A stretch of DNA of 64,000 nt. Source: Nonlabens arenilitoris (GTDB lineage: Bacteria; Bacteroidota; Bacteroidia; Flavobacteriales; Flavobacteriaceae). Below, piece after piece: positions 1,191 through 59,283 of this stretch (position 1 is the stretch's first letter; each line of letters starts with the position of its first letter). Made by a program: the position numbers and the translations under genes. Under the pieces are notes generated by a model. It saw only the letters and a program-made list of their open reading frames with translations, was not told where the DNA came from and searched no databases. The stretch lies in assembly GCF_002954765.1 (NCBI RefSeq), contig NZ_MTPW01000001.1, forward strand, positions 3,051,501 to 3,115,500, in the 5' to 3' direction.

Positions 1191-1206
1191 CGCTTTCGCG
1201 AAAGCG
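1191..1206. repeat. Dispersed palindrome, perfect copy, intergenic
   Basis: CGCTTTCGCGAAAGCG between the terminator and the dehydrogenase stop codon. It is the first of 12 perfect copies of the GCTTTCGCGAAAGC core in the window. Confidence 0.9.
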
Positions 1207-1211
1207 AGAAA

Positions 1212-2255
1212 CTACAATGTCTCCATATCAATAACAAAACGATACTTTACATCGTTTTTCTGAACGCGTTCAAAGGCGTTATTAATATCTTGCATATCAA
1301 TCATTTCTATATCTGATGTGATGTTGTGTTCTCCACAAAAATCTAACATTTCTTGAGTCTCCTTAATTCCTCCTATTAATGATCCTGCTAATTTTTTTCT
1401 TCTCAAAATAAGATTTGCACCATGTACATTTTCCAACGGTTCAATAGCACCTACTAGACACATCGTACAATCTCTTTTTAGCAAGGCTAGATATGGATTA
1501 ACATCATGGCCTACCGGTATGGTGTTAAGAATAAAATCAAAAGAATCATTGTGCTCTTTCATTTGATTTTCATCTTTTGAAATAATTACTTGATTAGCTC
1601 CTAGTCTTTTGGCATCCTTTGCTTTTTCTTCACTCGTGGTAATCATTACTGTTTCTGCTCCCATTGCAGCAGCAAATTTGATTCCCATGTGTCCTAGTCC
1701 ACCTAAACCTACGATTCCTACTTTATCACCTTTCTTTACATTCCAGTGTTTTAATGGCGAGTAAGTTGTTATACCTGCACATAAAAGAGGTGCTACCGCT
1801 TTGGTATCAAGATTAGTAGGTACTTTAAGGACAAACTCTTCTCTCACGACAATTACTTTTGAATATCCACCTAGAGTATGACCACCTAAATGTGGATCTT
1901 TACTGTTATAAGTACTGGTAGAACCATTCTCACACCACATTTCTTGATCTTCTTTACAAGCACTGCACTCTTGACAAGAATCTACCATACAACCTACTCC
2001 TACTAGGTCACCAACTTGATATTTTGATACATTACTACCTATGGCTGTTACCTTACCTATGATCTCGTGACCAGGTACGATAGGATATTTTGCATTTCCC
2101 CAGTCATTAAGTTTTGCATGTATATCACTATGACATACACCGCAATACATAATGTCAATAGATACATCATTGTCTAGTAGATCACGTCTGTTGATATTCA
2201 TTTCTTTTAAAGGCGCATCCTTATCTTGTGCACCATATGCTTTTACTTCTTTCAT
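1212..2255 (-). CDS. Zinc-dependent NAD(P) alcohol dehydrogenase (CAD/YahK type)
   Basis: A medium-chain dehydrogenase that interconverts alcohols and aldehydes using NAD(P)H in the cytosol. The catalytic zinc motif CGVCHSDIH near the N-terminus, GHEIIGKV, the four-Cys structural zinc loop (CQECSACKEDQEMWC), and the Rossmann motif GLGGLGHMGIKFA are all intact. About 347 residues is standard for the cinnamyl-alcohol-dehydrogenase/YahK branch. I chose the start MKEVKAYGAQ at 2255, seven codons inside the longest frame, because family members begin at this lysine/valine-rich stretch. It is monocistronic, with its own terminator. Broad-specificity aldehyde reduction is the likely role; the substrate cannot be read from sequence. 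Confidence 0.9.
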   Translation of the reverse strand: MKEVKAYGAQDKDAPLKEMNINRRDLLDNDVSIDIMYCGVCHSDIHAKLNDWGNAKYPIVPGHEIIGKVTAIGSNVSKYQVGDLVGVGCMVDSCQECSACKEDQEMWCENGSTSTYNSKDPHLGGHTLGGYSKVIVVREEFVLKVPTNLDTKAVAPLLCAGITTYSPLKHWNVKKGDKVGIVGLGGLGHMGIKFAAAMGAETVMITTSEEKAKDAKRLGANQVIISKDENQMKEHNDSFDFILNTIPVGHDVNPYLALLKRDCTMCLVGAIEPLENVHGANLILRRKKLAGSLIGGIKETQEMLDFCGEHNITSDIEMIDMQDINNAFERVQKNDVKYRFVIDMETL

Positions 2256-2406
2256 AGTCTTTATTTGTAGATACAAAATTTAGAAAATTAATTGATTATA
2301 GGTACTAGAGAAATCATAAAGTATCTCAATAATTAATAAAATAGTTAACGGCATTTTAAATGAGTAATAAGTGACAAACAGTATCTTTACTACAAGATTA
2401 TAAATT

Positions 2407-3321
2407 ATGCACAAATTACTTTACATCGCTTTAGCCGTATTAATAACATCCTGTAATTCAAACACATCAACTAAAAGTACAACTACTGATATAAACAGTA
2501 AACGTATGGAATCACTTGAAGACCTGACATTAAATCAAGAGTTTAAAGATTACTGGTATAATGGTAAAGCAGAGATTTCTAGTTATGAATTGTCTCAATC
2601 TAGATATGGGGAAATGCGTGATGGAAAATCAGTGATGATTTTTGTAACAGAACCATTTAATATCATAGACGAAGTTAAAGCAGACAACCCGTCTGAAGAT
2701 AATAGGCCAGTGATGAAACTTAATGTAACTAGAGATTTTAATACAGGCATCTATCCCTACTCTATTATGAGTAGCACCTTTTTACCTTTAGATAAAAAGG
2801 ATAATGCAATTAAAATATCTTCTAGTATTCAAGAATGGTGCGGACATACTTATATGCAATTGAATCAATATGATAAGGTATATGATGTTAGTTTATTTTC
2901 TTATTTTCAGTCTGAGCAGGAAGATTATTTTGAAGTTGAACAGGTTATGACTGAAAATCAAATTCCTATACAACTAAGGATAGATCCCACCGCGATGCCT
3001 ATTGGTGATCTAAAATTAATTCCCAGTCTAGAATATTTAAGGTTAAAACATGTGGAGACTAAAGCTTACGACGCAACCGCTAACTTTAGAGAGATTGAGG
3101 ATGGTTATTTATATAGTGTTAGATATAAAGAGTTAGACCGTATTATAGCTTTTAAAACACAAAAAGAAGCACCATATAAAATTCTATCCTGGATGGAGCG
3201 TTATAATGATAATGGTCAACCAGCAGTTTCTACTGGGACTTTAATTAAAACCTTAAATACTGCTTACTGGTCGCAAAAAGGCAGTGAATATGAGGTGCTA
3301 AGAGATAGTTTACAATTATGA
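2407..3321 (+). CDS. Lipoprotein of unknown function, upstream of an MscS-like gene
   Basis: 304 residues. The signal peptide MHKLLYIALAVLITSC has a clear lipobox (LITSC, Cys16), followed by a Ser/Thr/Asn linker, so this is an envelope lipoprotein. The body is soluble, mixed alpha/beta and rich in aromatics (for example KDYWYNGKAEISSYEL, SIQEWCGHTYMQLNQY). I recognise it as a conserved flavobacterial family but know no function. Its stop overlaps the next gene's start (ATGA at 3318-3321), so it is translationally coupled to the MscS-like channel and may work with it at the envelope. Nothing suggests an enzyme active site. Confidence 0.8.
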   Translation: MHKLLYIALAVLITSCNSNTSTKSTTTDINSKRMESLEDLTLNQEFKDYWYNGKAEISSYELSQSRYGEMRDGKSVMIFVTEPFNIIDEVKADNPSEDNRPVMKLNVTRDFNTGIYPYSIMSSTFLPLDKKDNAIKISSSIQEWCGHTYMQLNQYDKVYDVSLFSYFQSEQEDYFEVEQVMTENQIPIQLRIDPTAMPIGDLKLIPSLEYLRLKHVETKAYDATANFREIEDGYLYSVRYKELDRIIAFKTQKEAPYKILSWMERYNDNGQPAVSTGTLIKTLNTAYWSQKGSEYEVLRDSLQL

Positions 3322-3872: not shown

Positions 3873-3882
3873 TCAAATTGTG

Positions 3883-4410: not shown

Positions 4411-5655
4411 TTATACAAAAATGCCATTCTCTATATTACTGATTACCGCTTGCGCTGCAGCCTTACCATTCAACATCGCTGCATTTAACGATCCATTACT
4501 CAATTGATCACCAGCTAAGAAGATGTTTTGAGTAAGTTGAGTTTCTGTAGGGTTCATAGCATATTGAATGCTATCAAAAGTAGGCAATGCCTTTTTAATT
4601 TCCATCATTTTAATCAAGTCGCCAGCCTTAATATTTGCTTGTTCAATAAGCTCTTTACGAACACGTTCCTCAAGTTGATCTTTTGTCAGATTGTGTTTTG
4701 CAACTACACTTACACTTATTACTTTAGGATGATTTTCAAAAACATCATTTAAAAAATGAAAATTGTTACTCAAACAATCCTCGCCAGCTATTAAACCTAT
4801 GATAGGTTGGTCAAAACCATGCTCATCAGTATCATAATATAAAGTTTGTACACTGTGCCACTCTTTACCAGACTCAGGTAGGTTAGGAACTAAAACATCT
4901 GCAGGTGTAGCGATGACCGTATAATCACTATGAAGTATTTCACCATTTTCTAGATAAATCTTATCTGCAATGACCTCTTTAACGGTGGTATTTAATTTAA
5001 TTTGTCCGTCTAGTTGACCAGCCATTTGTTCTGGTATAGCTTTTATTCCTGCGGCAGGAATAGTTGCATTTCCTTCACTGAACATTTTAAACACAAACTC
5101 AAACATTCGACTACTTGTTTGTAATTCAGTTTCTAAGAAAATCCCTGTGTAAAAAGGCTTAAAAAAGCAGTCAATCATCTTTTTAGAAAAACCATAATCA
5201 AGGAGATAATCTAAAGTGGTTTTCTCTGGACTATTAAATATATCTATTAGATTTTTCTGTTTTAGCTTTCGCGAAAGCTTAAAAACTTTCCATTTATCAC
5301 TCACACTACCTACACCAGCGATAAGTGTACTCCATGCAAAGCTCATATCACGCTGTGCGTCACCTATAAGGTGTTTTTTACCATCAATAAAAACAATGGA
5401 TGCAGGAGAGAATTTTACTAGATTTAATGAATCTAGATTTAGAAATTCCTTTGCCGCTGGATACTCATCTAGCAATACTTGAAAACCATGATCTAGCTTC
5501 ATTGAGCCATTCATAGTGGTTTTAACACGACCACCTACTGTAGTAGACTGTTCTAATATGTGAGCATTATATCCAGCTTTTTTTAAAGTAATAGCAGCAG
5601 CTAATCCGCTGACACCAGCACCTATAATATGAATTTTCACGTCTTTACTAGTCAT
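4411..5655 (-). CDS. FAD-dependent amine-oxidase/protoporphyrinogen-oxidase-like oxidoreductase
   Basis: 414 residues. The N-terminal dinucleotide-binding motif IIGAGVSGLAAAITLKKAG is followed by the second FAD contact LEQSTTVGGRVKT and the conserved DHGFQVLLDEYP. The C-terminus has the flavoprotein closing motif FLAGDQLSNGSLNAAMLNGKAAA. This matches the amine oxidase/phytoene desaturase superfamily. The real substrate is unknown, and heme or carotenoid chemistry would both fit. The palindrome copy at 5264-5279 is inside the gene and is read as Leu-Ser-Arg-Lys (FKLSRKLK). A -7 promoter box lies just upstream. Monocistronic. Confidence 0.85.
   Translation of the reverse strand: MTSKDVKIHIIGAGVSGLAAAITLKKAGYNAHILEQSTTVGGRVKTTMNGSMKLDHGFQVLLDEYPAAKEFLNLDSLNLVKFSPASIVFIDGKKHLIGDAQRDMSFAWSTLIAGVGSVSDKWKVFKLSRKLKQKNLIDIFNSPEKTTLDYLLDYGFSKKMIDCFFKPFYTGIFLETELQTSSRMFEFVFKMFSEGNATIPAAGIKAIPEQMAGQLDGQIKLNTTVKEVIADKIYLENGEILHSDYTVIATPADVLVPNLPESGKEWHSVQTLYYDTDEHGFDQPIIGLIAGEDCLSNNFHFLNDVFENHPKVISVSVVAKHNLTKDQLEERVRKELIEQANIKAGDLIKMMEIKKALPTFDSIQYAMNPTETQLTQNIFLAGDQLSNGSLNAAMLNGKAAAQAVISNIENGIFV
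5264..5279. repeat. Dispersed palindrome, perfect core, inside the FAD oxidoreductase gene
   Basis: AGCTTTCGCGAAAGCT; encodes LSRK in the host gene. Confidence 0.9.
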
Positions 5656-7520: not shown

Positions 7521-8759
7521 ATGGACGCAATTTCATTGTTCTATCTTATTATAGGAATACTTGTTTTTGATTTTATATTAGATCAACTATTAGCTTACCT
7601 TAATTATACCTGGTATTCTAAAGATATACCGCAAGAATTGAATGATGTTTATGATGCTGATGAGTATACTAAATCTCAAGAATATAAAAAGACCAATTAC
7701 AGATTCAGTTTGATTAGCAGTAGTGTTTCATTCACAGCTATTTTGATTTTTTTGTTCTATGATGGATTTGCTATAATAGACAGTTGGGCTCGTACTTTAG
7801 TAAATCACGATATACTAGTTGGCTTATTATTCTTTACTGTAATTGCAGCAGCAGGCGAGATCATCTCGCTACCTTTCTCCTACTATTCTACTTTTGTGAT
7901 TGAAGAAAAATTTGGTTTCAATAAAACGACACTTAAGACTTTTATCATTGATAAGATTAAAGGTTGGTTATTAACAGCAATCTTAGGTGGCGCAATCTTA
8001 TCGCTAGTTATAGTTTGTTATAACTGGGCAGGAGAAAACTTTTGGTGGTATGTATGGATTTTAATATTTGCAATATCGCTATTAATGAATATGTTTTATG
8101 CTAGATGGTTTGTACCATTATTTAATAAACAAACACCACTAGATGAAGGTTCCTTAAAAGCCGCAATTGCAAATTATGCACAAGGAGTAGGCTTTCAACT
8201 CGATAAAATTTTTGTGATTGACGGCAGCAAACGATCTACTAAGGCAAATGCATATTTCAGCGGTTTTGGTAGTGAAAAACGGGTTACACTTTATGATACC
8301 TTAATATCTAAACTAACTGAAGAAGAAATAGTTGCCGTACTCGCACACGAGGTAGGTCATTATAAAAGAAAACACATCATTTATAACCTCATTGCTAGTA
8401 CAGTAACGACAGGATTTACACTATGGCTATTTTCGTTATTTGTAGATAGTATTACTTTATCTCAAGCACTAGGTGTTACAATACCATCATTTCACGTTGG
8501 TCTAGTAGCCTTTGGTCTTCTCTACTCGCCTATCTCTACGATTACTGGAATTGTGATGAGTTCGCTTTCGCGAAAATTTGAATACGAGGCTGATGCATAT
8601 GCACAAAATACCTATTATGGTAAACCACTCATCACTGCCTTAAAAAAATTAAACAAAACCAGTTTAAGTAATCTTACACCGCATCCAGCATATGTGTTTT
8701 TCAATTATTCGCATCCTACTTTATATCAGCGTATGATGGCCATGAAGAATAAGCTTTGA
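7521..8759 (+). CDS. M48 membrane zinc metalloprotease, CAAX protease (Ste24/HtpX-like)
   Basis: 412 residues. Several transmembrane helices precede the zinc motif HEVGH (His276 and His280), and the third ligand lies in EYEADAYA. The N-terminal peptidase_M48_N-like part (TWYSKDIPQELNDVYDADEY) and the segment FSGFGSEKRVTLYDTL are characteristic of Ste24-type CAAX proteases. In bacteria these degrade or process membrane proteins; no prenylated substrate need exist. A degenerate palindrome copy (8563-8576) lies inside, read as Leu-Ser-Arg-Lys just before the third zinc ligand. Confidence 0.92.
   Translation: MDAISLFYLIIGILVFDFILDQLLAYLNYTWYSKDIPQELNDVYDADEYTKSQEYKKTNYRFSLISSSVSFTAILIFLFYDGFAIIDSWARTLVNHDILVGLLFFTVIAAAGEIISLPFSYYSTFVIEEKFGFNKTTLKTFIIDKIKGWLLTAILGGAILSLVIVCYNWAGENFWWYVWILIFAISLLMNMFYARWFVPLFNKQTPLDEGSLKAAIANYAQGVGFQLDKIFVIDGSKRSTKANAYFSGFGSEKRVTLYDTLISKLTEEEIVAVLAHEVGHYKRKHIIYNLIASTVTTGFTLWLFSLFVDSITLSQALGVTIPSFHVGLVAFGLLYSPISTITGIVMSSLSRKFEYEADAYAQNTYYGKPLITALKKLNKTSLSNLTPHPAYVFFNYSHPTLYQRMMAMKNKL
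8563..8576. repeat. Dispersed palindrome, degenerate copy, inside the M48 protease gene
   Basis: GCTTTCGCGAAAAT differs from the core at the last two bases. It encodes LSRK. Confidence 0.65.
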
Positions 8760-9503: not shown

Positions 9504-9839
9504 ATGAAGTGGAATCAATTAAAACAGAATAAATACTGGAAAGTTTTTACTAATAAGTACGTACTTATCAGTATCATATTTGTGATATGGATTCTGTTTT
9601 TAGATGCAAATGCTTGGCTAACCTCGCATAGAGAACTAGATCAACAAATTGCAGAAAAAGAACAAAATGTCGATTTCTATAAACGCGGTATTCAGAAAGA
9701 TCAAAATAGAATTAAAGCATTGAAAGATAGCGCTGGTATTGAAAAATTTGCCCGTGAACGCTATTTAATGAAACGAGAAAATGAAGAAGTGTTTATCATA
9801 CAGCACGCAGATTCCTTAAAAAAAGACACAAATGAGTAA
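9504..9839 (+). CDS. FtsB/DivIC-like septum formation initiator protein
   Basis: 111 residues. A short cytoplasmic N-terminus is followed by one transmembrane helix (ISIIFVIWILFLDAN, about residues 22-38) and a periplasmic coiled coil (RELDQQIAEKEQNVDFYKRG). The closing block GIEKFARERYLMKRENEEVF is the conserved DivIC signature. FtsB-type proteins bridge FtsL and FtsQ in the divisome. The gene overlaps mutA by 8 bp. The family call is firm; the divisome role is by analogy. Confidence 0.9.
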   Translation: MKWNQLKQNKYWKVFTNKYVLISIIFVIWILFLDANAWLTSHRELDQQIAEKEQNVDFYKRGIQKDQNRIKALKDSAGIEKFARERYLMKRENEEVFIIQHADSLKKDTNE

Positions 9840-11214
9840 TCGATTGTTTGAAGATTTTGAACCGGTATCAGAAACGGCCTGGAAACAAAAAATCCAGATG
9901 GACCTTAAAGGTGCTGACTATAACGAGACCTTAGTCACTAAAACTAATAGTGGAATCGATATTAAACCAATATATCACAGTGACAGTGCTCCACAATTAA
10001 ACATTCCTGCTCGCGCTACAGATAACTGGTTTATCTCGCAAAGAATCTATGCTGGTAATGCCACGGCAGCAAACAAAAAAGCAAAAGACGTTTTAAAACG
10101 CGGTAGTGAAGGTGTACTTTTTGTTATACCTAATAAAGAAATTGACCCAACGGTTTTACTTAAAGGATTACCAGAATATGGAATTCAAATCCATCCACAA
10201 TTTATGGATTTGGATTATATAAAACAGGTGCATGGTATCAACCCAAAAGCTTACGTGCACATTGATATAATCAATCAATTAGCAAGTGATGGAAACTGGT
10301 TCAATGATTTAAAAAAGGATCATTACAACTATGCTGAGTTCATTAAATCGTTCTCAGGATACTTTTCTCAGTTCACTGTAAACACGAGTTTGTATCAAAA
10401 CGCAGGAGCTACTACAACTCAAGAATTAGGCTATTATGCCGCGCATTTAAACGAGTATTTAAATCACTATTGCGATACCAGTAAAGAGCATGATGCAGGT
10501 GTTTATGACGCTTACGCGAAAGCAGAAAAAAGGATTAACATTGACACCACCATAGGTAGTAATTACTTTATGGAAATAGCAAAATATAGAGCATATCGGT
10601 TAATAACCAAAGCTATAGGCAACCTCTATAGTATTGACTTAAAATGCTATATTACAGCAAGTCCAAGCCATCGAAATAAATCATTACTTGACTACAATGT
10701 AAACCTATTACGCACCACGACAGAATGTATGAGTGCCGTTTTAGGTGGTGCAGATACCGTATATAATTTACCTTATGATGAGTTCTTTAATAAGGAAAAT
10801 GAGTTTGGAGATCGCATAGCGCGCAATCAACTACGTATCTTAAAAGATGAAGCATATTTAGAAAAAATAAACAATGCTGCAGATGGATCTTACTACATCA
10901 ACACACTAACAAAACAACTCACTGAAAAAGCAATTGAGCTTTTCAAAACGATAGAACGTGGTGGCGGTTTTGTACAATCATTATTTGAAGGCACCATACA
11001 ACGTAAAATTAAAGAAAGTGCCACTCAAGAATTAAATGATATAGATAATCAAAAGAAAATTATGGTAGGCGTAAATAAGTATCCTAACGCTGATATGCCA
11101 CTACAAGATGAGTATGAACTATATCCATTTGTAAAAGCAAATCCTCGTAAAACATTGATAGCACCTATTGTTCCTACCCGATTAGCAGAGTCTATTGAAA
11201 AAGCACAGATGTAA
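9832..11214 (+). CDS. mutA: Methylmalonyl-CoA mutase small subunit
   Basis: 460 residues. This is the catalytically inactive partner of the alpha-beta mutase: it aligns with the mutase TIM barrel (for example [27 protein letters not shown] and [12 protein letters not shown]) but has no C-terminal cobalamin domain. It binds the large subunit encoded immediately downstream, and the two share the A of TAATG. A degenerate palindrome at 10509-10524 encodes DAYAKAEK in a helix. With mutB it interconverts succinyl-CoA and (R)-methylmalonyl-CoA in propionate metabolism. Confidence 0.95.
10509..10524. repeat. Dispersed palindrome, degenerate copy, inside mutA
   Basis: CGCTTACGCGAAAGCA, one mismatch in the left arm. 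It encodes AYAKA. Confidence 0.6.
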
Positions 11215-13340
11215 TGAAAAGAAAAGATATCTCACAAATAACAATCGATTTCGATTTTGCTACGTCTCAAAATGCTGATATACCAGCTTATGAAACATCT
11301 GAAGGAATTGATATTAAAAAATATTATTCTAAAGATGATATTGCTGATTTAGAACATTTAAATTATGTGGCTGGACTAGCACCTAATTTGCGTGGTCCCT
11401 ACTCTACTATGTATGTAAGACGTCCATGGACCGTACGTCAATATGCAGGTTTTTCTAGCGCAACAGAATCTAATGCTTTTTATAGACGTAATCTCGCTGC
11501 TGGACAGAAAGGCTTATCTGTCGCCTTTGATCTGGCAACTCATAGAGGTTATGATTCTGACCATGATCGTGTAGTTGGTGATGTGGGGAAAGCTGGAGTT
11601 GCTATCGATAGTGTTGAGGATATGAAAGTCTTATTTGATGGGATTCCGCTTGATAAGATGTCGGTTTCTATGACTATGAATGGCGCGGTATTACCTATTA
11701 TGGCATTCTACATAGTAGCGGCGATGGAGCAAGGCGTAGATCCTAAATTACTAAGCGGTACGATTCAAAACGACATACTTAAGGAATTTATGGTGAGGAA
11801 TACCTATATCTATCCGCCATCTCCTAGTATGCAAATTATCTCAGATATCTTTGAATACACCAGTAAAAACATGCCTAAGTTCAACTCGATTTCTATATCC
11901 GGTTACCACATGTATGAAGCTGGAGCCACAAGTGACATTGAGCTTGCTTACACACTAGCTGATGGACTTGAATATGTGCGCAAAGGACTCGCTGCCGGAA
12001 TGGACATCGACACTTTTGCTCCTAGACTATCCTTTTTCTGGGCCATAGGAATGAATCACTTTATGGAAATTGCCAAAATGCGTGCGGCACGTATGCTATG
12101 GGCTAAACTTATTAAACAATTCAATCCTAAAAATGCCAAGTCTCTAGCACTAAGAACACATTGCCAGACATCTGGTTGGTCACTTACTGAGCAAGACCCA
12201 TTTAATAATGTGGCGCGTACGACTATCGAGGCTGCTGCAGCTGCTTTTGGTGGTACGCAAAGTTTACACACAAACGCACTTGATGAAGCTATTGCATTAC
12301 CTACAGACTTTAGCGCACGTATAGCACGTAACACGCAACTGTTTTTACAAGAAGAAACTGGAATTACTAAAACAGTAGATCCTTGGGCTGGTTCTTACTA
12401 CGTGGAGTCTTTAACAAATCAAATAGCTCACAAGGCTTGGGAACTCATTGAAGAGGTTGAAGAGCTCGGCGGAATGACCAAAGCGATTGAAGCTGGAATT
12501 CCAAAAATGCGTATTGAAGAAGCTGCCGCAAAAAAGCAGGCACGTATTGATTCTGGAATTGACACCATTGTTGGAGTCAACAAATATCCTAGTCCCGATG
12601 AGGATCTTATTGATACACTTGAGGTGGATAACGCTGCGGTACGTATCGAGCAAGTGAATCGTTTAAAGGACATAAAAGCTACTCGTAATACTGAAAAGGT
12701 TCAGAAAGCGCTTGAGAACCTAACAGATTGTGCTAAAAGCAAAAATGGTAACTTACTCGAACTTGCTGTAATTGCAGCCCAAGAGCGCGCTACTCTCGGT
12801 GAAATATCAGATGCACTGGAATCTGTTTATGGAAGATATCGTGCACAAATTAAAAGTGTTCAAGGAGTTTATAAAAAAGAGATTATGAATGATCCTGCTT
12901 TCGCGAAAGCGCAACAACTAGCCGACCAATTTGCTCAAAACGAAGGTCGTCGTCCTAGAATTATGATTGCTAAAATGGGACAAGACGGACATGATCGTGG
13001 AGCAAAGGTAGTCGCTACTGGTTATGCCGATGTAGGCTTTGACGTAGACATAGGTCCACTTTTCCAAACACCAGCTGAAGCAGCAAAACAAGCTGTAGAA
13101 AATGATGTACATATTTTAGGTGTAAGTTCTTTAGCGGCAGGACATAAAACACTAGTTCCTCAAGTAATGGATGAGCTAAAAAAATACGGCCGTGAAGACA
13201 TTATGATCGTTGTAGGTGGCGTGATTCCACGTAAAGATTACCAGTTTTTATTTGACGCTGGAGTTGCTGCAGTCTTTGGTCCTGGAACTAAAATCAGTGA
13301 AGCGGCGATTGATATTTTAGGGTTATTGATGGATGAGTGA
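11214..13340 (+). CDS. mutB: Methylmalonyl-CoA mutase large (catalytic) subunit
   Basis: 708 residues. The substrate-binding TIM barrel (about residues 60-540, with [18 protein letters not shown] and [16 protein letters not shown]) is followed by a linker and a C-terminal cobalamin domain. That domain has the base-off motif DGHDRG with the cobalt-ligating His593, then [11 protein letters not shown] and VVGGVIP. Adenosylcobalamin-dependent rearrangement of succinyl-CoA and methylmalonyl-CoA. A perfect palindrome copy (12897-12910) lies in the linker between the domains and is read as PAFAKAQQ. The gene ends 1 bp from a convergent gene with no hairpin between. Confidence 0.97.
12897..12910. repeat. 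Dispersed palindrome, perfect copy, in the mutB interdomain linker
   Basis: GCTTTCGCGAAAGC, encoding AFAKA between the barrel and the cobalamin domain. Confidence 0.9.
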
Positions 13341-15735: not shown

Positions 15736-17221
<1,486 letters not shown>

Positions 17222-19500: not shown

Positions 19501-19520
19501 TACGCTTTCGCGAAAGCGTA
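19501..19520. repeat. Dispersed palindrome, perfect 20-bp copy, intergenic
   Basis: TACGCTTTCGCGAAAGCGTA between the serA terminator and the DUF1456 gene; one of the two longest copies in the window (with 30938-30957). Confidence 0.92.
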
Positions 19521-23413: not shown

Positions 23414-23472
23414 CTTTACAAAACCCGTTTCACCTAGCTTGTAGGTCGTTCCACAGTTTGTATTTTTACAAC

Positions 23473-24270
23473 ATGATGGAGATAATTGTAATCGGTACTG
23501 GTAACCTGGGCTTCAACCTATGTAAGGCTATTGAAAATCAGTATGTTATTAAGGATTCCGCTTTCGCGAAAGCGAAATGTAAGAACGTTAAAAATACCCT
23601 AAAATTAATAGGTTACTACAACACTAGTGCTACACGATTAGCTAGCTTACAGGCACCACTACTCGACTCTATCACATCCTTACCTAAAGCAGATCTTATA
23701 ATTATCGCTACACCAGATGATTACATCACTAGTGTTAGTAATTCTCTTAATACTGATGCGATTGTCGCTCACACTAGCGGTAGTGTCGATTTACAGGCGG
23801 TTTCAAATCGTAACAACTATGGAGTATTTTATATTCCCCAAAGCTTTAGTAAGTCTAGAGAAATGAATTTTGAAGAGTTGCCTGTCTGTCTAGAATACAA
23901 TAATGATATAGCACAGAAAGGATTAGAAACATTGGGTAATTGCTTGTCTAGTAAGGTTACTTATCTAGATTCAGAACAGCGTAGACGATTACATATTGCA
24001 GCAGTTTATATGAACAATTTTGTTAATCATTGTTATACTAAAGCTGACGAAATATTAAGTGATGCAAATATTGATGCCTCTTTACTATATCCATTGATGA
24101 ATGAAACTCTTGCTAAAGCTCAAGAACTAAGTCCTTATGAGGCACAAACCGGTCCTGCTAGACGTAATGATGTGCAGACAATCACAAAACACCTCGAGGC
24201 ATTAAAAACTAATGATCGCGCTATGTATGACGCGATAACAAATTCAATAAAAAACACTTATGGCAACTAG
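23473..24270 (+). CDS. DUF2520 Rossmann-fold protein (predicted NADP-dependent oxidoreductase)
   Basis: 265 residues from MMEIIVIGTGNLGFNL; ATG 23476 is equally possible. The N-terminal Rossmann domain carries GTGNLG and the strand end IIIATPDD. DUF2520 follows, with AHTSGSVDLQ, FYIPQSFSKSREM and LHIAAVYMNNFVNH. The family resembles 6-phosphogluconate/F420-type dehydrogenases, but the substrate is unknown. A perfect palindrome copy (23559-23574) inserts DSAFAKAKC into the Rossmann domain, in what looks like a surface loop. The gene overlaps the KdsC-like gene by 11 bp. Confidence 0.88.
   Translation: MMEIIVIGTGNLGFNLCKAIENQYVIKDSAFAKAKCKNVKNTLKLIGYYNTSATRLASLQAPLLDSITSLPKADLIIIATPDDYITSVSNSLNTDAIVAHTSGSVDLQAVSNRNNYGVFYIPQSFSKSREMNFEELPVCLEYNNDIAQKGLETLGNCLSSKVTYLDSEQRRRLHIAAVYMNNFVNHCYTKADEILSDANIDASLLYPLMNETLAKAQELSPYEAQTGPARRNDVQTITKHLEALKTNDRAMYDAITNSIKNTYGN
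23559..23574. repeat. Dispersed palindrome, perfect copy, inside the DUF2520 gene
   Basis: CGCTTTCGCGAAAGCG; encodes AFAKA in the Rossmann domain. Confidence 0.9.
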
Positions 24271-26558: not shown

Positions 26559-26573
26559 CGCTTTCGCGAAAGC
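26559..26573. repeat. Dispersed palindrome, perfect core, intergenic
   Basis: CGCTTTCGCGAAAGC, 26 bp after the small membrane gene. Confidence 0.9.
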
Positions 26574-34985: not shown

Positions 34986-35508
34986 AATATATATCAAGTA
35001 TTACAAATTTGCCGTAGGCGATGTAATCATTGGTATTTATGAAAATCAACTTTGTTTATTAGACTGGCAATACCGCAAACAACGTGAAGCCATTGATCAC
35101 CGTATTGCAAATGATCTAAACGCTATCTACACGGTTGAAGATCATCAACTTCATCATAAGGTTATCGTTCAAATACAAGAATATTTTAATAAGAAACGTA
35201 ATGAATTTGACATTCCTCTATTATTAACAGGAACTACATTTCAAAAAGCAGTTTGGAATGAATTATTAAAGATTCCTTATGGACAAACGATTTCTTATCT
35301 ATCGCTTTCGCGAAAGCTTTATAAAGAAAAAGCGATAAGAGCAGTAGCCAATGCAAATGGTGCAAATGCCTTATCAATAGTTATACCTTGCCACAGAGTG
35401 ATAGGAAGTAATGGTGATTTAATAGGATATGCCGGTGGATTACTAGCAAAGAAAAAGCTCCTACAAATTGAAGGAGCTTTACAGAGTAATCAATTGGGAT
35501 TATTTTAA
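34978..35508 (+). CDS. ogt: Methylated-DNA-protein-cysteine methyltransferase
   Basis: 176 residues. The active-site motif IPCHRVIG contains the acceptor Cys138, and the helix-turn-helix with Arg finger (AIRAVANANGANALS) precedes it. FQKAVWNELLKIPYGQT is the conserved C-terminal-domain entry. It repairs O6-methylguanine by suicidal transfer of the methyl group to its own Cys. A perfect palindrome copy (35304-35317) is read as SLSRKLYK, in the loop before the recognition helix. It shares a transcript with the permease and overlaps the convergent gene by 4 bp. Confidence 0.94.
   Translation: MSKIYIKYYKFAVGDVIIGIYENQLCLLDWQYRKQREAIDHRIANDLNAIYTVEDHQLHHKVIVQIQEYFNKKRNEFDIPLLLTGTTFQKAVWNELLKIPYGQTISYLSLSRKLYKEKAIRAVANANGANALSIVIPCHRVIGSNGDLIGYAGGLLAKKKLLQIEGALQSNQLGLF
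35304..35317. repeat. Dispersed palindrome, perfect copy, inside ogt
   Basis: GCTTTCGCGAAAGC; encodes LSRK next to the DNA-recognition helix. Confidence 0.9.
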
Positions 35509-39543: not shown

Positions 39544-39575
39544 AAGCCTACTCACAACTGAGTGGGCTTTTTTTA
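39544..39575. terminator. Terminator between the Ser/Arg-rich protein gene and the flippase gene
   Basis: AAGCCTACTCA and TGAGTGGGCTT (39559-39569) form an 11-bp stem with one G-T wobble, followed by a T-run. It mainly serves the rightward gene; the T-run reaches the flippase stop codon. Confidence 0.82.
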
Positions 39576-41024
39576 TGGCATATACTTACGCAGCAATTCA
39601 TTTATCTCTATAGATAATTTCAACTTTCTAATAATTAATACATAAATTATTGTAAGCAATACACTTTTCAGAAAGATATTTAATACAGGATGCCAGTTAA
39701 AATCCCAAAAGTAAAAAACCGCAATAAAGGTCAGTATTAATAGAATAGAAAGACTAGTTCTAGCAGTCCATGGATGTATATGTAATTTGTGATATACATA
39801 AAACGCTTTCGCGAAAGCGTATAAAACATAAGCAATGCATGTCGATATTGCAGCACCCATTAAACCATAAATGGGTATTAACCACATATTGAGTAAAATA
39901 GCCAAGACCGCTAGCAACAAACCTAACCACAATGTCACCCGATATAAGTCTGAATTGTATAATATAGCATTATTACTACCCAGAAGACTTTCTGCATATT
40001 TAACTACCGCAATTAACATTACCACTGGGATTCCCACTCGATATTCTGGACGCATTAATTGATAAAATTCATTGACATTACAAATGATAATAATTACTAA
40101 AAAACCAGCAATAATACTGAGATTAAGAGAGCTGCGTTTATAGAGATGCTCTACCTCTTTTATCTCACCTCTATTAAAATGACCTGCCGTTAATGGATGC
40201 ATTATTTGCGCCATACCACGTGCTGGCACGGCTATAACCGTTGCAATAAAGACAGCGACATTATACCATGAGATGTTATCAATAATTAAATAATCATTAA
40301 TCATAAACTTATCCAGGTCTAGCAATGCAGTGCCCACTGATCCAGCAACTATCATCAATAAAGAATAATTGATTAAATCTTTACTCGCTTTAATCTTCCC
40401 TAGCTGGTATTGAGGTGTATATGTTTTAAAAGCTACTAACTTCATTATAAAAGCTCTTAAGCCATAAATAAGGACTAGACTGTAAATAAATTGCACTTGT
40501 GTTATCCAGTCCAACGCTAGAAATATTAACATTATAGTCGCTGCTAATCTGTAAAAAACTTCCTTTAAAAAGTTACCTCCTATGGTTTTCATATGGACTT
40601 TAGTCCAAGCATAAAAAATTTCAAAGTAAGCTTGGAAAACCGCTATAATTGCGATGGACCATACAAAATCGCTAGTAATTTGATTACGATTTGCGATATA
40701 TAGCCGTATAGGGTCATAGAATATATAAATGAGAATGAAAACTGGTATAATAATAACTAGTGGCCATAACAGCATTTGTGTTAAAAACGAATCACGCTCA
40801 TTTTTATGGTCATACCTAGAGTAAAATTTCACAATAGTATTGTGAATCCCAAAGGACATTAAAGGAAATAATAGAAAAGCTGTCGATAAAATATAACCCC
40901 ATAAACCATAGTATTCATCATCTAGATAGGTGGTCGCTAGCAACAACACATTAAGTGCACCCAGTACAAATCCAGCAGCTGTAATTGCAAGATTCCATCC
41001 AGATTGTTTAATAACTATTCCCAT
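39573..41024 (-). CDS. Polysaccharide flippase-like (Wzx/MOP) membrane protein
   Basis: 483 residues with about 12-14 transmembrane helices. The opening KQSGWNLAITAAGFVLGALNVLLL and internal YSLLMIVAGSVGTALLDLDKFMI are typical of oligosaccharide flippases of the MOP superfamily. It would move lipid-linked glycan units across the inner membrane. A perfect palindrome (39803-39820) lies in a loop-helix junction and is read as YAFAKAFY. It overlaps the glycosyltransferase gene by 10 bp, the last gene of a four-gene leftward operon. Confidence 0.88.
   Translation of the reverse strand: MGIVIKQSGWNLAITAAGFVLGALNVLLLATTYLDDEYYGLWGYILSTAFLLFPLMSFGIHNTIVKFYSRYDHKNERDSFLTQMLLWPLVIIIPVFILIYIFYDPIRLYIANRNQITSDFVWSIAIIAVFQAYFEIFYAWTKVHMKTIGGNFLKEVFYRLAATIMLIFLALDWITQVQFIYSLVLIYGLRAFIMKLVAFKTYTPQYQLGKIKASKDLINYSLLMIVAGSVGTALLDLDKFMINDYLIIDNISWYNVAVFIATVIAVPARGMAQIMHPLTAGHFNRGEIKEVEHLYKRSSLNLSIIAGFLVIIIICNVNEFYQLMRPEYRVGIPVVMLIAVVKYAESLLGSNNAILYNSDLYRVTLWLGLLLAVLAILLNMWLIPIYGLMGAAISTCIAYVLYAFAKAFYVYHKLHIHPWTARTSLSILLILTFIAVFYFWDFNWHPVLNIFLKSVLLTIIYVLIIRKLKLSIEINELLRKYMP
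39803..39820. repeat. Dispersed palindrome, perfect copy, inside the flippase gene
   Basis: ACGCTTTCGCGAAAGCGT; encodes AFAKA between two transmembrane helices. Confidence 0.9.
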
Positions 41025-42310
41025 GTGTAAGCTATTGTTTTAGCTAGTGTTTTAGTAAGGTTTTCTCTTTTGTAACTATTAATATGATCATTTAATTGAC
41101 CTTCATTATTACCATTTTTAAATAGCGCATATTTTTCTAAAACATGTTCTTTAAGTTTCTGCTTTTCAAGATAATTAAAATATTGACCAGAATGTGTATG
41201 TTTTATCAAGTTCTCAATATCTGCATCTTTAGGACCTATGGCTATAATAGGTCTTGCACTGGCAAAATATTCAAATAGTTTTCCTGGTATAATGGCCTTA
41301 GTATCTATACTATCAATTTCAATAAGTAATAAACACTGGGAATGAAACATTAGGTCTACAGCATCTTTATGAGAAAGGTAACCTAATAGGTTTAGATTCG
41401 AGTCAAGATCATATCTATGAATAGAATCTAAGATTTCACTACTCACATTACCAGCAAGTTGTAATTTAAAAGCCGCTTTAAAATCAGTGCTTTCACTACA
41501 TAATTCTGCTAGTACTTCCCATAAAACTTGAGGATTACGATCAGATAACAGCGTTCCTACATGCGACATGGTAAAGGCACCTACTGGTTGTCGTGTTGTA
41601 GTATTTACATTGATGTCAAATCCATTTGTAATTACTTGTATAGGTGTATTGGATTTAGACGCAAATTCTTTTCCTGTATGAGGACTAGTAACTATAAGTA
41701 AATCTGCATTATTTAAAACATCTTGTTCTAATTGTTCATGCTTTTTTTGTGCTCTAGCTCCTATTTTTAAATGCTTATGATAACCTATAGTTGTCCATGG
41801 ATCTCTAAAATCTGCCAGCCATTTAAAACCTGTATATTTATTCTTAAGCTCTAGACCGATTAAATGTATAGAATGTGGTGGTCCCGTAGTAATTATAGTC
41901 GGGTTTTTATGCTCCAGTAAATAAGGATGTATTGCTTTAATTACTCTCGATTTCCATCCTACTCTAGCATCTGGTACAAATAAATTACCACGCATCCATA
42001 TCATGGCGCGCTGTAATGGTCCAGCATTCTTAGGTATAATTCCCTTTTGAAGATTTTTAGTACGCTTACGCGAAAGCGAACTGGCCCAACGACTAGGTTC
42101 ATTGATAGGAACTTTAATGAATTGAATTCCTTTAGGTACTTCTTCTATAAGCGATGCATCAACTATAGGATAGTCAGGATGATCTGGTATAACCACCGTT
42201 ACTTCAAAGTTGTACTGATCTAAGTATGTAGCAAATTTTAACCAGCGTTGTACACCTGGACCACCAGCAGGTGGCCAGTAGTAAGTAATGATGAGAACAG
42301 GATTTTTCAT
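41015..42310 (-). CDS. Glycosyltransferase (GT-B fold, GT4-like)
   Basis: 431 residues. The N-terminus VLIITYYWPPAGGPGVQRWLKF is the glycine-rich nucleotide-sugar loop of GT-B enzymes acting on capsule or O-antigen. The C-terminal domain has a donor-binding region around LLIEIDSIDTKAIIPGKLFEYFASARPIIAIG, cut here as KLFEYFASARP with its conserved Glu. It transfers a sugar to a lipid-linked acceptor. A degenerate palindrome copy is read as SLSRKRTK. It sits between YfhO and the flippase, so a role in a surface glycan is likely; donor and acceptor are unknown. Confidence 0.88.
   Translation of the reverse strand: MKNPVLIITYYWPPAGGPGVQRWLKFATYLDQYNFEVTVVIPDHPDYPIVDASLIEEVPKGIQFIKVPINEPSRWASSLSRKRTKNLQKGIIPKNAGPLQRAMIWMRGNLFVPDARVGWKSRVIKAIHPYLLEHKNPTIITTGPPHSIHLIGLELKNKYTGFKWLADFRDPWTTIGYHKHLKIGARAQKKHEQLEQDVLNNADLLIVTSPHTGKEFASKSNTPIQVITNGFDINVNTTTRQPVGAFTMSHVGTLLSDRNPQVLWEVLAELCSESTDFKAAFKLQLAGNVSSEILDSIHRYDLDSNLNLLGYLSHKDAVDLMFHSQCLLLIEIDSIDTKAIIPGKLFEYFASARPIIAIGPKDADIENLIKHTHSGQYFNYLEKQKLKEHVLEKYALFKNGNNEGQLNDHINSYKRENLTKTLAKTIAYTWE
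42063..42078. repeat. Dispersed palindrome, degenerate copy, inside the glycosyltransferase gene
   Basis: CGCTTACGCGAAAGCG, one mismatch (T to A) in the left arm. It encodes LSRK. Confidence 0.65.
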
Positions 42311-48125: not shown

Positions 48126-48920
48126 CTAATTTTTTGCGTTTCTTCTCGTTTTCTTTGGCTTTTTTTCCAAATATTCTTTCCTTATTCTAGCACGTTCTGC
48201 TAGTTGAATGGAATCATAATCTGCTGGAAGATTATCTTCATATTCATTCCAGGCAGTACGGCCTTTAAAATAATCATAGTCTATTGCAGGTTCTTGTTCT
48301 TCTAGAGTTTCTCTCTTAAATTCATTGAGCAAGACATCTTCTATATAAAAATCTTCAATATTTGTTTCTGGGCTATACTCTGCTTTTAAATCAATATCAA
48401 AAATACTCGCTGCATTTTTAAACCAGAAAGCACTCCATCCACTACGCAATTGTTTTAAAAGTTCAAAAGTGGTCATACCAGTTTGACGATGTAATAGCTT
48501 AATTAATATCTGACCTTCTGTTGTGGTTAATTTTTTAAGCTCGGCTGTAAACTCTTCTTCTACATAGCGTTGGACTATTTTTGTGTACTTCTTTTTATCG
48601 CTTTCATACTCTAGCGATGCAAGCCTTCGATCTAGCTCAGTTAATCGTTCTGCAGCTAGCTTTGCATAAGGCCACACTTTTTTAACCTTACGTTTAATAA
48701 TTTGATAACGTATGTTTTCATATCTACTATCAAATTTTAAGGACTGCAATAACATAACACGATCTAGTTCTATGGCACTTAAAGAGTCACCATCTATAAA
48801 GAAGTACTGCGGTGTTTGTACTGTATCTGTTTTTACTGGCAATATGGTAGGTGTTGTTTGCGCTTTCGCGAAAGCGGAACCCAACAAAACTATTATTAAT
48901 ATAAATATCTTATTGATCAT
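48126..48920 (-). CDS. DUF4294 exported protein
   Basis: 264 residues. The signal peptide ends LLGSAFAKAQTTP, and the AFAKA is encoded by a perfect palindrome copy (48861-48876), so the repeat supplies the Ala-x-Ala cleavage site. The mature protein is highly charged and helical: YQIIKRKVKKVWPYAKLAAERL, then KIVQRYVEEEFTAELKKLT and GWSAFWFKNAASIFDIDL, the DUF4294 signature. Very basic C-terminus (KPKKTRRNAKN). Function unknown. A -7 box lies 25 bp upstream of the ATG. Confidence 0.87.
   Translation of the reverse strand: MINKIFILIIVLLGSAFAKAQTTPTILPVKTDTVQTPQYFFIDGDSLSAIELDRVMLLQSLKFDSRYENIRYQIIKRKVKKVWPYAKLAAERLTELDRRLASLEYESDKKKYTKIVQRYVEEEFTAELKKLTTTEGQILIKLLHRQTGMTTFELLKQLRSGWSAFWFKNAASIFDIDLKAEYSPETNIEDFYIEDVLLNEFKRETLEEQEPAIDYDYFKGRTAWNEYEDNLPADYDSIQLAERARIRKEYLEKKPKKTRRNAKN
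48861..48876. repeat. Dispersed palindrome, perfect copy, at the DUF4294 signal-peptide cleavage site
   Basis: CGCTTTCGCGAAAGCG; encodes AFAKA, forming the signal peptidase motif. Confidence 0.9.
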
Positions 48921-55960: not shown

Positions 55961-55961
55961 A

Positions 55962-56371
55962 TTAACTCTCTTTTTTATTAATTGTTCAACTCTTTTAATA
56001 TCGATTCCGTGATGGGAATCTGTGTGTATAATCTCCTCATTATCAATAACAATAATTTGCGGTGATTGATGCATCACATTTAATTTACTTGCAATCGTAT
56101 TGCTTAATTCCCTATGATTCAATAAATCTAGTAGGTAAAAACTAGCATCTTCATCTTTTAGAGAATATCCTGCCTCAAAATTTTTGAGTACCATTCTAGA
56201 AATCCCACATCTTGTACTATGTTTAAAAATTACCTTAGGAACTCTTTTTGAATTGGCGATCAAGTTATTTAACTGATCTTCAGACTCAAGCATTTGCCAT
56301 GGCAATCCTTCTTGAATTTCATCTTTTGCAATATCGCGTTGTGATTTAAACAACTTATTAAACAATCCCAT
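55962..56371 (-). CDS. ytxJ: YtxJ/BrxC-like bacillithiol-system redox protein (3' end altered by a one-base loss)
   Basis: About 136 residues of a thioredoxin-like fold. The single-Cys motif STRCGISRMVLKNFEAG (Cys55) and the cis-Pro region HQSPQIIVID, then DSHHGID, fit YtxJ/BrxC, which removes bacillithiol from proteins in Bacillus and some Bacteroidota. The normal stop is missing: with seven instead of six A at 55971-55976 (plus-strand T-run), the frame would end KKES-stop one base before the M48 ATG. A -7 box and a palindrome lie upstream. Confidence 0.82.
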
Positions 56372-56393: not shown

Positions 56394-56409
56394 CGCTTTC
56401 GCGAAAGCG
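56394..56409. repeat. Dispersed palindrome, perfect copy, intergenic
   Basis: CGCTTTCGCGAAAGCG, 22 bp before the ytxJ ATG and between the gene and its -7 box. Confidence 0.9.
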
Positions 56410-56437
56410 GAATCTAACTCATCCCAATACTAAATTA

Positions 56438-56445
56438 CAAAGATA
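56438..56445 (-). promoter_or_regulatory. -7 promoter box for ytxJ-M48
   Basis: TATCTTTG on minus (CAAAGATA on plus), 66 bp before the ytxJ ATG. The palindrome at 56394-56409 would lie in the transcript leader. Confidence 0.55.
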
Positions 56446-56581
56446 AGGGATGTAACAATTAAATCTCGCTAATGATTTACTAACAGACAGTTTGTCGTAT
56501 TTATTTGCGTTTTATATGTCTTTTTGGCAATTTTCAATAGAGGTATAAGATTTGACTCTTAAAAGAAAACAAAAAAAAGAC

Positions 56582-59188
56582 ATGAACATGAATCAACTTA
56601 CAATAAAATCGCAAGAAGCGCTCCAGGCAGCGCAACAACTTGCACAAGCGTCAGGTCATCAATTTATAGAAAACCTGCACCTTTTGAAAGGAATGATACA
56701 GATAGATGAAAATGTATTACCATTCATTTTTAAGAAACTTAATGTTAATCTATCACTGGTTATTCAACTTATAGACAGTAGTCTTAATGCACTTCCTAAA
56801 GTAGAAGGTGGCGACATTCAATTATCTAGAGATGCATCTAAAACCGTTAATGGCGCTATGAGTATAGCTACTAAGATGGAAGATGAATATGTAAGCTTAG
56901 AACATTTATTAATATCGCTATTTGATGGTAAATCAACAGCAGCTCGCATACTTAAAGATCAAGGGATTACTAAAAATCAATTAGAAAAGGCCATAGAAGA
57001 ATTAAGGCAAGGTAGTCGTGTTACAAGTGCTAGCGCTGAAGAAACCTATAACAGTCTTAATAAATATGCTAAAAATCTTAATCAGCTCGCTGACCAAGGT
57101 AAACTAGATCCTGTAATAGGTAGAGACGAAGAAATACGACGTATTTTACAAATTCTATCTAGACGCACAAAAAACAACCCTATGTTAGTTGGAGAACCTG
57201 GTGTAGGTAAAACAGCTATCGCAGAAGGGCTTGCTCATAGAATTGTGGCTGGTGATGTCCCAGAAAACCTTAAGAATAAACAAATATTTTCACTAGATAT
57301 GGGTGCTCTAATTGCCGGTGCAAAATATAAAGGTGAATTTGAGGAACGATTAAAAGCGGTGATTAAAGAAGTCACAGAAAGTTCTGGAGATATTGTCCTA
57401 TTTATCGATGAAATCCATACACTAGTAGGTGCTGGTGGTGGGCAAGGCGCCATGGATGCCGCAAACATTTTAAAACCAGCACTGGCACGTGGTGAACTGC
57501 GTGCTATAGGAGCCACTACCCTAGATGAATATCAAAAATATTTTGAAAAGGATAAGGCACTAGAACGACGTTTTCAACGTGTATTAGTTGATGAACCAGA
57601 TACAGAAAGTGCTATATCTATTTTACGAGGTATAAAGGATAAATATGAGACACATCATAAAGTTCGTATAATGGATGAAGCGATTATAGGGGCTGTAGAA
57701 TTGTCGCAACGTTATATTACTAATCGCTTTTTACCAGATAAGGCCATTGATTTAATGGATGAAGCTGCTGCAAAATTGCGTATGGAAATTAACTCAAAAC
57801 CAGAAGAACTAGATGTATTAGATCGTAAGATCATGCAATTAGAAATTGAAATTGAGGCCATCAAACGTGAAAAAGATGAAACTAAACTTAAGGCTTTGCG
57901 CAGCGAACTTGCTAATTTTAAAGAATCTCGCAATGAGATCAATGCACAATGGGTGAATGAGAAAGATATTGTAGAAGCCATACAAGCAGCAAAAAGTGAT
58001 ATTGAAAATTACAAACAACTGGCAGAACGTGCAGAACGTGATGGCGACTATGGTCAAGTAGCAGAACTGCGTTATGGAAAAATTAAAGAAGCTCAAGAAG
58101 AACTAGAGAAACTTCAAAAGGAAGTCTCCCTTAATGACACTGGTAAATCCTTAATACAAGAAGAAGTTACCTATGATGACATCGCAGAAGTGATTGCAAA
58201 ATGGACCGGTATACCGGTTACTAAGATGCTACAAAGTGAGCGCGATAAATTATTAAAATTAGAAGATGAATTACACAAGCGCGTGGTAGGCCAGCAAGAG
58301 GCAATTATCGCTGTGAGTGATGCTGTGCGACGCAGTCGTGCCGGTTTACAAGATCAAAAAAAGCCTGTTGGATCGTTTCTATTTTTAGGTACTACAGGAG
58401 TAGGTAAAACAGAACTTGCAAAAGCTCTAGCAGATTATCTGTTTAATGATGAGAACTCTATGACACGTATAGACATGAGTGAGTATCAAGAACGTCATAG
58501 TGTGAGTAGATTAGTAGGTGCTCCACCAGGATATGTAGGATATGATGAAGGTGGACAACTTACAGAAGCTGTTAGAAGAAAACCTTACAGTGTTGTCTTG
58601 TTAGATGAGATTGAAAAGGCTCATCCAGATACTTTTAATATTTTATTACAAGTTCTAGATGAAGGACGATTAACGGATAACAAAGGTCGTGTTGCAGATT
58701 TCAAAAACACGATTATTATTATGACTTCTAACATGGGAGCAGACTTAATACAGGATCGTTTTGAGAATGCTAGTTCTGTGACAGAATCTCTACTAGAAGA
58801 AACAAAGAAAGAGGTTTTGGTAGCGTTAAAACAACGGGTAAGACCAGAGTTTATCAACCGTATTGATGATATTGTAATGTTTACACCATTGACTAAAAAT
58901 GAAATTCAGCAAATCGTGAGTTTACAGTTGAAAGGTGTTACTAAGATGTTATCTCTACAGGGAATTACTATAGATGCTACACCAGCAGCGATTGAACTAC
59001 TTGCTATACAAGGTTATGATCCACAATATGGAGCTAGACCTGTAAAACGAGTCATACAGAAAAGTGTGCTCAATGAATTATCTAAACAGATTTTATCAGG
59101 TGAGATTTCTACTGAGAGTATCGTCTTGATTGATGCTTTTGAAAATCAAATCGTTTTTAGGAATGAAACGGATGCTGTAGAAGTGTAA
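56582..59188 (+). CDS. clpB: ClpB disaggregase
   Basis: About 868 residues from ATG 56582 (or 56588). N-terminal Clp repeats ([17 protein letters not shown]) are followed by AAA1 with Walker A GEPGVGKT (from residue 204) and Walker [10 protein letters not shown]. The long middle coiled coil (about residues 395-515) distinguishes ClpB from ClpA and ClpC. AAA2 has Walker A GTTGVGKT (from residue 603) and [16 protein letters not shown] Walker B ([13 protein letters not shown]). It extracts proteins from aggregates with DnaK in the cytosol. The 56552 TTG start is rejected because family members begin at MN-x-x-T/L. A strong terminator follows. Confidence 0.97.
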
Positions 59189-59212
59189 ACTAAAAATGAA
59201 ATTCAAATTATT

Positions 59213-59250
59213 GCAACTTATTCTTAAGTAAAGAATAAGTTGCTTTTTTG
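59213..59250 (+). terminator. Intrinsic terminator after clpB
   Basis: GCAACTTATTCTT (59213-59225) pairs with AAGAATAAGTTGC (59231-59243) around 5 bases, followed by TTTTTTG. Confidence 0.92.
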
Positions 59251-59267
59251 TTTACTTATTTTTTATA

Positions 59268-59283
59268 CGCTTTCGTGAAAGCG
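59268..59283. repeat. Dispersed palindrome, degenerate copy, intergenic
   Basis: CGCTTTCGTGAAAGCG, one change at the centre (CG to TG), the signature expected of decay at a CpG-like site. The rest of the 59284-59479 gap is AT-rich with no gene or clear promoter. Confidence 0.65.

Follow-up and report, generated by a model that had tools for sequence, protein, structure and literature searches.

A palindrome recurring once per 4–8 kb, and rarely close together, suggests a chromosome-wide mark read by a putative protein in Nonlabens and Dokdonia

What keeps one 14-bp palindrome, GCTTTCGCGAAAGC, in place along the chromosome of Nonlabens arenilitoris, and why do two copies so rarely stand close together? 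The question is raised by a stretch of 64,000 nucleotides (the window; G000:C1:3051501-3115500 of the 3.32-Mb genome G000), which carries 12 perfect copies. When up to two mismatches are allowed, the window holds 17 places, as compared with 0.09 expected from 100 dinucleotide-preserving shuffles, none of which reached 17. A sequence-only reading had reported the 12 perfect copies, which are borne out with true coordinates 0–3 bases off those given, together with a set of degenerate copies, of which those at 10510, 42064 and 59269 have one mismatch and that at 8564 has two. The fifth, near 53985, has three, and a further copy with two mismatches at 6970 was absent from that list. Our analysis reveals a strongly maintained, evenly spaced, dyad-symmetric site system that extends far beyond the window.

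The whole genome G000 contains 550 perfect copies and none of the reversed-pattern control. A count close to chance, or a motif restricted to the window, would have spoken against the sequence-only reading, and neither is the case. All 23 genomes searched of the Nonlabens-type genus (g1, which includes G003, bacterium BBFL7, and G006, Nonlabens MAG-97) carry 288–857 copies, with a control count of 0 in each. Among 395 genomes drawn from the family, 389 have 0–19 copies and six have at least 408, the six being four of g1, G206 (408) and G220, Dokdonia sinensis (857); this draw is incomplete, with D. sinensis as its only recognisable Dokdonia. In a set of 30 named genomes, eight Dokdonia have 570–905 copies, eight Nonlabens-type genomes (BBFL7 included) 478–701, the metagenome-assembled genome (MAG) SAT149 369, and twelve others, including two Leeuwenhoekiella, 1–13. 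The MAG SAT51 (L030) is intermediate between carriers and non-carriers, with 89 copies in 5.0 Mb, which could reflect decay or mixed binning. Furthermore, a collection of 84,980 species yields at least 111 stretches with the motif, and 74 of these 111, among the matches listed, belong to Nonlabens, Dokdonia or BBFL7. The 30 named genomes and the 111 stretches were found via the motif; they point to where it abounds and say nothing of its rarity. Among named motif-bearing stretches, Nonlabens MAG-97 gives the longest match to the window (77–79% identity), and Dokdonia stretches match at 73–74%. The motif is the strongest palindrome in carrier samples, with a genome-wide over-representation like that of palindromes of the highly iterated palindrome 1 (HIP1) type. 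In G220 and G206, a second palindrome, GCCTGCCGGCAGGC, is present three times per 240-kb sample.

The spacing of the copies was measured mainly in 464 contiguous kb of G000 (the window plus 400 kb). The 78 perfect copies in this sample are separated by 77 gaps with a mean of 5,684 bp (range 2,322–14,187 bp) and a coefficient of variation (CV) of 0.485, as compared with 0.98 ± 0.11 for random placement, and none of 5,000 random sets was as even. Gaps shorter than 2 kb are absent, against 22.0 expected at random. Placement weighted 3.5-fold toward DNA without a crudely called gene gives a CV of 1.01 (lowest of 2,000 sets, 0.70) and fails to reproduce the observed evenness. The near-even spacing claimed for the window thus holds and continues past it, in weaker form in some samples. 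Across six samples, the short-gap deficit is significant in all six and the CV in four; the CV is 0.475 in G002, 0.471 in G003 and 0.694 in G220, with 2, 0 and 12 gaps below 2 kb against 14.2, 5.0 and 18.6 expected, respectively. Positions taken from listings give CVs of 0.54 and 0.64 in Dokdonia pacifica, 0.40 and 0.19 in G018, and 0.68 in G004, where four gaps are below 1.5 kb and 20.4 are expected. With the origin of G000 located by its pair of parS sites, copy density near the origin, at mid-arm and opposite the origin is similar (one per 6.5, 5.3 and 5.9 kb, respectively), and the origin bias that the sequence-only reading had marked for checking, or a terminus bias, is not seen in these three samples.

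Imperfect copies follow the same rule. Of the 66 one-mismatch copies in seven samples, only 8 have a perfect copy within 1.8 kb (38.5 expected), and of the 47 two-mismatch copies, 19 have a better copy that near (31.8 expected); therefore, degenerate copies count as sites. The exclusion zone is about 2 kb wide and soft, not absolute. This zone and the symmetric flanks described below go beyond the description in the sequence-only reading.

The anatomy of the site is equally constrained. The arrangement GCTTTC-N2-GAAAGC occurs 148 times in 864 kb of G000, and spacers of 0, 1 and 3–8 bp occur zero times; the 2-bp spacer is likewise exclusive in three other sample sets. In the 66 one-mismatch copies, changes fall mostly at half-site positions 4 and 5 and at the outer two, with only two at positions 2–3 and two at the centre. 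Beyond the 14 bp, 466 copies (including those on 37 motif-bearing stretches from other organisms) show an adjoining C on the 5' side or G on the 3' side in about 81–82%, followed by A/T-rich sequence in which the 5' side prefers T at 3, 4, 7 and 10 bases out, with A mirrored on the 3' side. This symmetric preference reaches about 10 bp outward and is alike in coding and non-coding copies, and we read it as a protein footprint of about 34 bp. Because the half-site spacing is fixed and the flanks are symmetric, a putative rigid protein dimer probably reads the palindrome. The two flanks also pair more often than in shuffles 1, 2 and 4 bases out (p 0.001, <0.0005 and 0.0055) and weakly so at 7 and 10; when coding and non-coding copies are taken separately, the excess at the second base holds in each class (p 0.0075 and 0.029), and the other positions are mixed. 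The effect is small (39% versus 31% at most), and selection for a hairpin was not adopted as an explanation.

Consistent with strong maintenance, 31 of 36 orthologous copies are intact in three relatives of 84–86% identity, as compared with 13–18% of random 14-mers. Ortholog differences are mainly substitutions, and two in G001 are insertions or deletions. By crude gene calls, which cover only 78% of the DNA, 34 copies of the 464-kb sample lie inside genes and 44 outside. A crude open-frame rule, which leaves out copies between its two thresholds or near stretch ends, assigns 262 copies as coding and 133 as not; 149 of the 262 lie in the frame that reads AFAKA. In the window, six perfect copies had been called intergenic, and five or six of the 12 do lie outside open reading frames (ORFs) of at least 150 amino acids, the doubt falling on the copy at 23560. 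The sites are as follows.

1192..1205, perfect copy between ORFs 101–1093 (−) and 1212–2276 (−); ortholog unchanged in G012 and G003, shortened by a 1-bp deletion in G001
5265..5278, perfect copy within ORF 4411–5655 (−); unchanged in G001 and G012, with a single mismatch in G003
8564..8577, degenerate copy with two mismatches in HtpX-like ORF 7521–8759 (+)
10510..10523, one-mismatch copy in ORF 9832–11214 (+), methylmalonyl-CoA mutase small subunit-like; ortholog a perfect copy in G001, G012, G003 and several other genomes of the genus
12897..12910, perfect copy in 11214–13340 (+), the gene for the large subunit of methylmalonyl-CoA mutase, where it reads AFAKA in the linker that joins the mutase domain to the B12 domain
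16169..16182, perfect copy close to the start of ferredoxin-like ORF 15736–16239 (−)
19504..19517, perfect copy between ORFs 18481–19440 (+) and 19565–20062 (+)
23560..23573, perfect copy 174 bp beyond ORF 20114–23386 (−); inside ORF 23458–24270 (+) only if its TTG start is real
26560..26573, perfect copy not covered by any ORF of at least 150 amino acids
30940..30953, perfect copy between two peptidyl-prolyl isomerase ORFs, 30348–30908 (+) and 31028–32185 (+)
35304..35317, perfect copy in ogt-like ORF 34978–35508 (+)
39805..39818, perfect copy in ORF 39573–41024 (−)
42064..42077, one-mismatch copy in ORF 41015–42310 (−); perfect in G001, G012 and G003
48862..48875, perfect copy close to the start of ORF 48126–48920 (−)
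56395..56408, perfect copy between ORFs 55136–56371 (−) and 56552–59188 (+, ClpB-like domains); intact in G012, changed in G001 and G003
59269..59282, one-mismatch copy between ORFs 56552–59188 (+) and 59480–63451 (+); a perfect copy aligned in G001 and G003

Two of these copies were followed through further genomes of the genus with a covering alignment (69–85% identity): that at 12897 is intact in 15 of 18 and changed in G001, and that at 16169 is intact in 9 of 9. In the mutase gene, GCT TTC GCG AAA GC is identical in G000, G002 and D. sinensis; the carrier G206 lacks the motif there, as do all 18 non-carriers, 14 of which read SFxKA, and G170 reads AFAKA as GCT TTT GCT AAA GC. The tree of this gene has poor resolution; its four carrier rows call for 3 changes, a number as low in 98 of 500 shuffles, so the tree does not demonstrate a single origin.

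Outside the carriers, the motif may persist in degraded or borrowed form. Places with up to two mismatches, perfect and island copies included, exceed the reversed control in the genomes of g145 (86, 74 and 58 versus 20, 10 and 14), g59 (69, 108 and 20 versus 8, 11 and 6) and g87 (41, 38 and 17 versus 5, 15 and 8), with a two- to fourfold excess in some others (G094, 29 versus 9; G413, 33 versus 9; G306, 24 versus 8) and none in G242, G232, G178, G061 and G256. In 40-kb samples at up to three mismatches, G390 shows an excess (7 versus 1) and G170 none (1 versus 2). We infer that the excess in relatives reflects decay after loss of the motif. A search for motif dialects in about 40 kb of each of nine non-carrier genomes saw none; GTAAAACGTTTTAC, at first sight promising in G170, was rejected as a dialect, being present only 4 times in G170, 3 times in G324 and once in G112 among the 30 genomes searched, with none in the remaining 27. 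The copies of GTAAAACGTTTTAC in G170 and G324 perhaps mark a small regulon.

Non-carriers have few copies, and many of these cluster in islands that different Flavobacteriaceae genera share and that are about 66–97% identical where compared (L132-L146, with L134 from Altibacter lentus, genome G131, and L041 from Aquimarina), in which a pair of copies 933 bp apart recurs. One island stretch read gene by gene (L133) encodes, by eye, a P-type ATPase, a multicopper oxidase and a resistance-nodulation-division (RND) pump, and looks like a copper-resistance island. A search for the island donor in carrier stretches gave one short match. The motif also occurs on 120 viral stretches, 42 of them with a GC content below 0.45. 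Several low-GC stretches have 2–3 copies each with carrier-like flanks, and three of the viral stretches look like one phage; viral contigs of this kind in public collections are L287, L308, L311, L254, L236, L253 and L314. Portal, major head, tape measure, endolysin or integrase families of PHROGs are found on some viral stretches, as is a primase family on some motif-bearing contigs, and 6 of the 20 viral-stretch proteins tried matched no PHROGs family. By comparison, two isolated phages of a Nonlabens-type host, close relatives that amount to about one case, have no copy with up to two mismatches in 35.7 kb each, and named plasmids and phages, queried with a consensus-like sequence, matched at chance level only (Rhizobium, Nostoc and Mycobacterium records).

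Taken at close to an even chance, our preferred reading is that the palindrome is the binding site of a putative rigid, dimeric, sequence-specific DNA-binding protein, most likely one that organises the chromosome. One protein would read all copies, with an effect extending a few kilobases along the chromosome. A site would help only DNA that has no other site near by, and a new copy arising by point mutation would be kept only in a gap. The benefit may lie in chromosome organisation, with the nucleoid anchored, looped or segregated. Dyad symmetry, the fixed spacer and a missing pilus ATPase (below) together incline us towards a dimer that resides in the cytoplasm and acts along the whole chromosome. 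A bolder form of this reading, a built-in ruler with one protein anchor per 4–8 kb chromosome-wide and an exclusion zone of about 2 kb, is possible, though we hold it doubtful; to our knowledge, sequence-encoded regular chromosome architecture of this type is known in no other bacterium.

Several observations weigh against an organising site. Even spacing and conservation are equally expected of uptake sequences. Evenness is weak in G005 (CV 0.755, p 0.10, not significant; gaps below 2 kb 0 versus 5.3) and in G206 (CV 0.821, p 0.14, not significant; 5 versus 11.6), and one-mismatch copies of G206 show no avoidance (3 of 6 near versus 3.2 expected). Within G000, the CV is 0.65 near the origin and 0.72 at mid-arm, where one gap is 772 bp, with no significance attached to either. 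Four gaps of about 14–21 kb were examined in this genome. All three proteins tested from one of them are SecY, RpoA and RpsE, and therefore protein constraint may account for that gap; the other gaps of about 20 kb are without explanation, including one free of perfect copies at G000:C1 ~1335679-1355811, which spans the parS pair near the origin. In this origin-proximal gap and a second one, 5 of the 7 proteins tested had no family at E 1e-20. The Leeuwenhoekiella genomes, which we take to be relatives of the carriers, manage with 7 and 13 copies, and the viral copies mean that the motif is not limited to host genes. In addition, no reader protein was found, and ParB, the sole chromosome-wide candidate tested, is disfavoured.

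The case against ParB rests on its number, its sites and its recognition helix. One copy is encoded in 9 of 10 carriers (two in G019) and in 13 of 20 non-carriers, and 10 of 10 carriers retain, among the matches listed, two perfect parS sites about 1.9 kb from each other. The recognition helix reads KNRST in the carriers G206 and G220, as in several non-carriers (of 19 non-carrier rows, 17 yielded a helix and two gave none), and KSRSA in eight g1 genomes versus K(K/N/D)RST in the other rows read. ParB was thus rejected as the reader on indirect grounds: 9 of 10 carriers have no additional paralog, parS is retained, and the helix is not carrier-specific. A system of the ParB/Noc type, which the TTTC...GAAA half-sites would recall through their resemblance to parS and the Noc site, is accordingly very improbable. 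The parS sites of g1 are mostly GTTTCACGTGAAAC among the matches listed.

The main rival is an uptake-like self tag, in which cells would prefer motif-bearing fragments in uptake or recombination and biased conversion would spread copies, molecular drive or selection adding them until each typical fragment holds one. We consider this rather unlikely. Known uptake sequences are read through machines of the type IV pilus or type II type, which we regard as defining, and their cores in Neisseriaceae (DNA uptake sequence, DUS) and Pasteurellaceae (uptake signal sequence, USS) are not known to be perfect rigid palindromes, as the motif is. The ATPase of such machines (PF00437) passes the cut-off in 2 of 10 carriers, G000 not among them, and its absence from the other eight weakens the rival. 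ComEC was found in all 30 genomes, 10 of them carriers, which suits uptake. According to the available parts of the sources, the spacing of neisserial DUS equals conversion-fragment length, with permissive core positions and high conservation (PMC2397512), drive is expected to give relatively even spacing, and constrained genes contain few uptake sequences (PMC7811141); the spacing, permissive positions and clade-wise loss seen here would suit such a drive about as well, and scarcity in constrained genes fits the gap over SecY, RpoA and RpsE. Riemerella columbina, moreover, favoured its own DNA in a competition test, as the available part of PMC7965970 describes. Of the interpretations offered by the sequence-only reading, an organising site and an uptake sequence both stand, and the methylation or repair idea has lost ground.

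That last idea, in which an orphan DNA methyltransferase together with methylation-directed repair would leave a HIP1-like motif as a by-product, has in its favour an abundant, clade-limited palindrome, as HIP1 is, and a limit on close copies, since sites in Elhai's model saturate at about the reach of repair (PMC4390886, available part). We regard it as quite improbable: the C5 methyltransferase family PF00145 was not found in 5 of 11 carriers (G000, G010, G016, G020 and G206; the C5 type only was searched, not N4 or N6), 14 bases are too many for a methylase alone, with about the whole 14 bp kept versus a core of 4–6 bp and few mismatches at positions 2–3 or the centre, and CGCG is common away from the motif (302 of 380 occurrences in 464 kb). 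Slightly less improbable is a mark that resembles Chi or serves self-recognition and so shields own DNA from a nuclease or defence system. E. coli Chi has a similar density, and some viral contigs have 2–4 copies with carrier-like flanks; Chi is, however, short and directional, and the two related phages of a Nonlabens-type host lack the motif. Least probable of all is a mobile palindrome, such as a repetitive extragenic palindromic (REP) element, or a bidirectional terminator. A dispersed, hairpin-capable palindrome with many copies between genes and a slight excess of flank pairing would suit either, but orthologs gain or lose the site mostly by substitution and many copies lie in coding frames, and the T-rich 5' and A-rich 3' flanks are the reverse of a terminator, with no hairpin followed by a T run.

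No account of the motif in Nonlabens or Dokdonia was found in the open-licence literature searched. HIP1-like abundant palindromes are still without an agreed function, and the motif studied here has a spacing rule strong enough to measure. It is found in genera with cultured members (Dokdonia and Nonlabens) and has relatives that may have lost it, so the putative reader and the reason for the even spacing are directly testable. The motif may also tag DNA shaped in Nonlabens or Dokdonia and found elsewhere, for example in metal-resistance islands.

The sequence-only reading had likened it to HIP1 of cyanobacteria (GCGATCGC) as an abundant dispersed palindrome of different sequence, which is fair: both are abundant, dispersed and clade-limited, and the function of HIP1 is unsettled in the available part of PMC4390886. 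HIP1 differs in being 8 bp long, whereas the motif is 14 bp, has a different sequence, is evenly spaced with an exclusion zone and symmetric flanks, and is borne by carriers about half of which yielded no C5 methylase. HIP1 is reportedly spread by substitution. USS, for its part, has AT-rich flanks, like the motif. As far as the available parts of the sources go, DUS and USS share with it many near-invariant copies, relatively even spacing, permissive positions and high conservation, at about one USS per 1 kb (PMC7811141) and one DUS per 1.1–1.5 kb (PMC2397512). By comparison, the motif is palindromic with rigid half-sites, is several times sparser, and in 8 of 10 carriers occurs without a PF00437 match over the cut-off. 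Dispersed palindromic chromosomal sites read by a dimer are represented by Noc and its binding site NBS, ParB/parS, SlmA and its binding site SBS, and MatP/matS. The putative reader of the motif is not ParB by the tests made, and the motif differs from these four in showing no bias to the origin or terminus in the three samples of G000 and in having far more copies.

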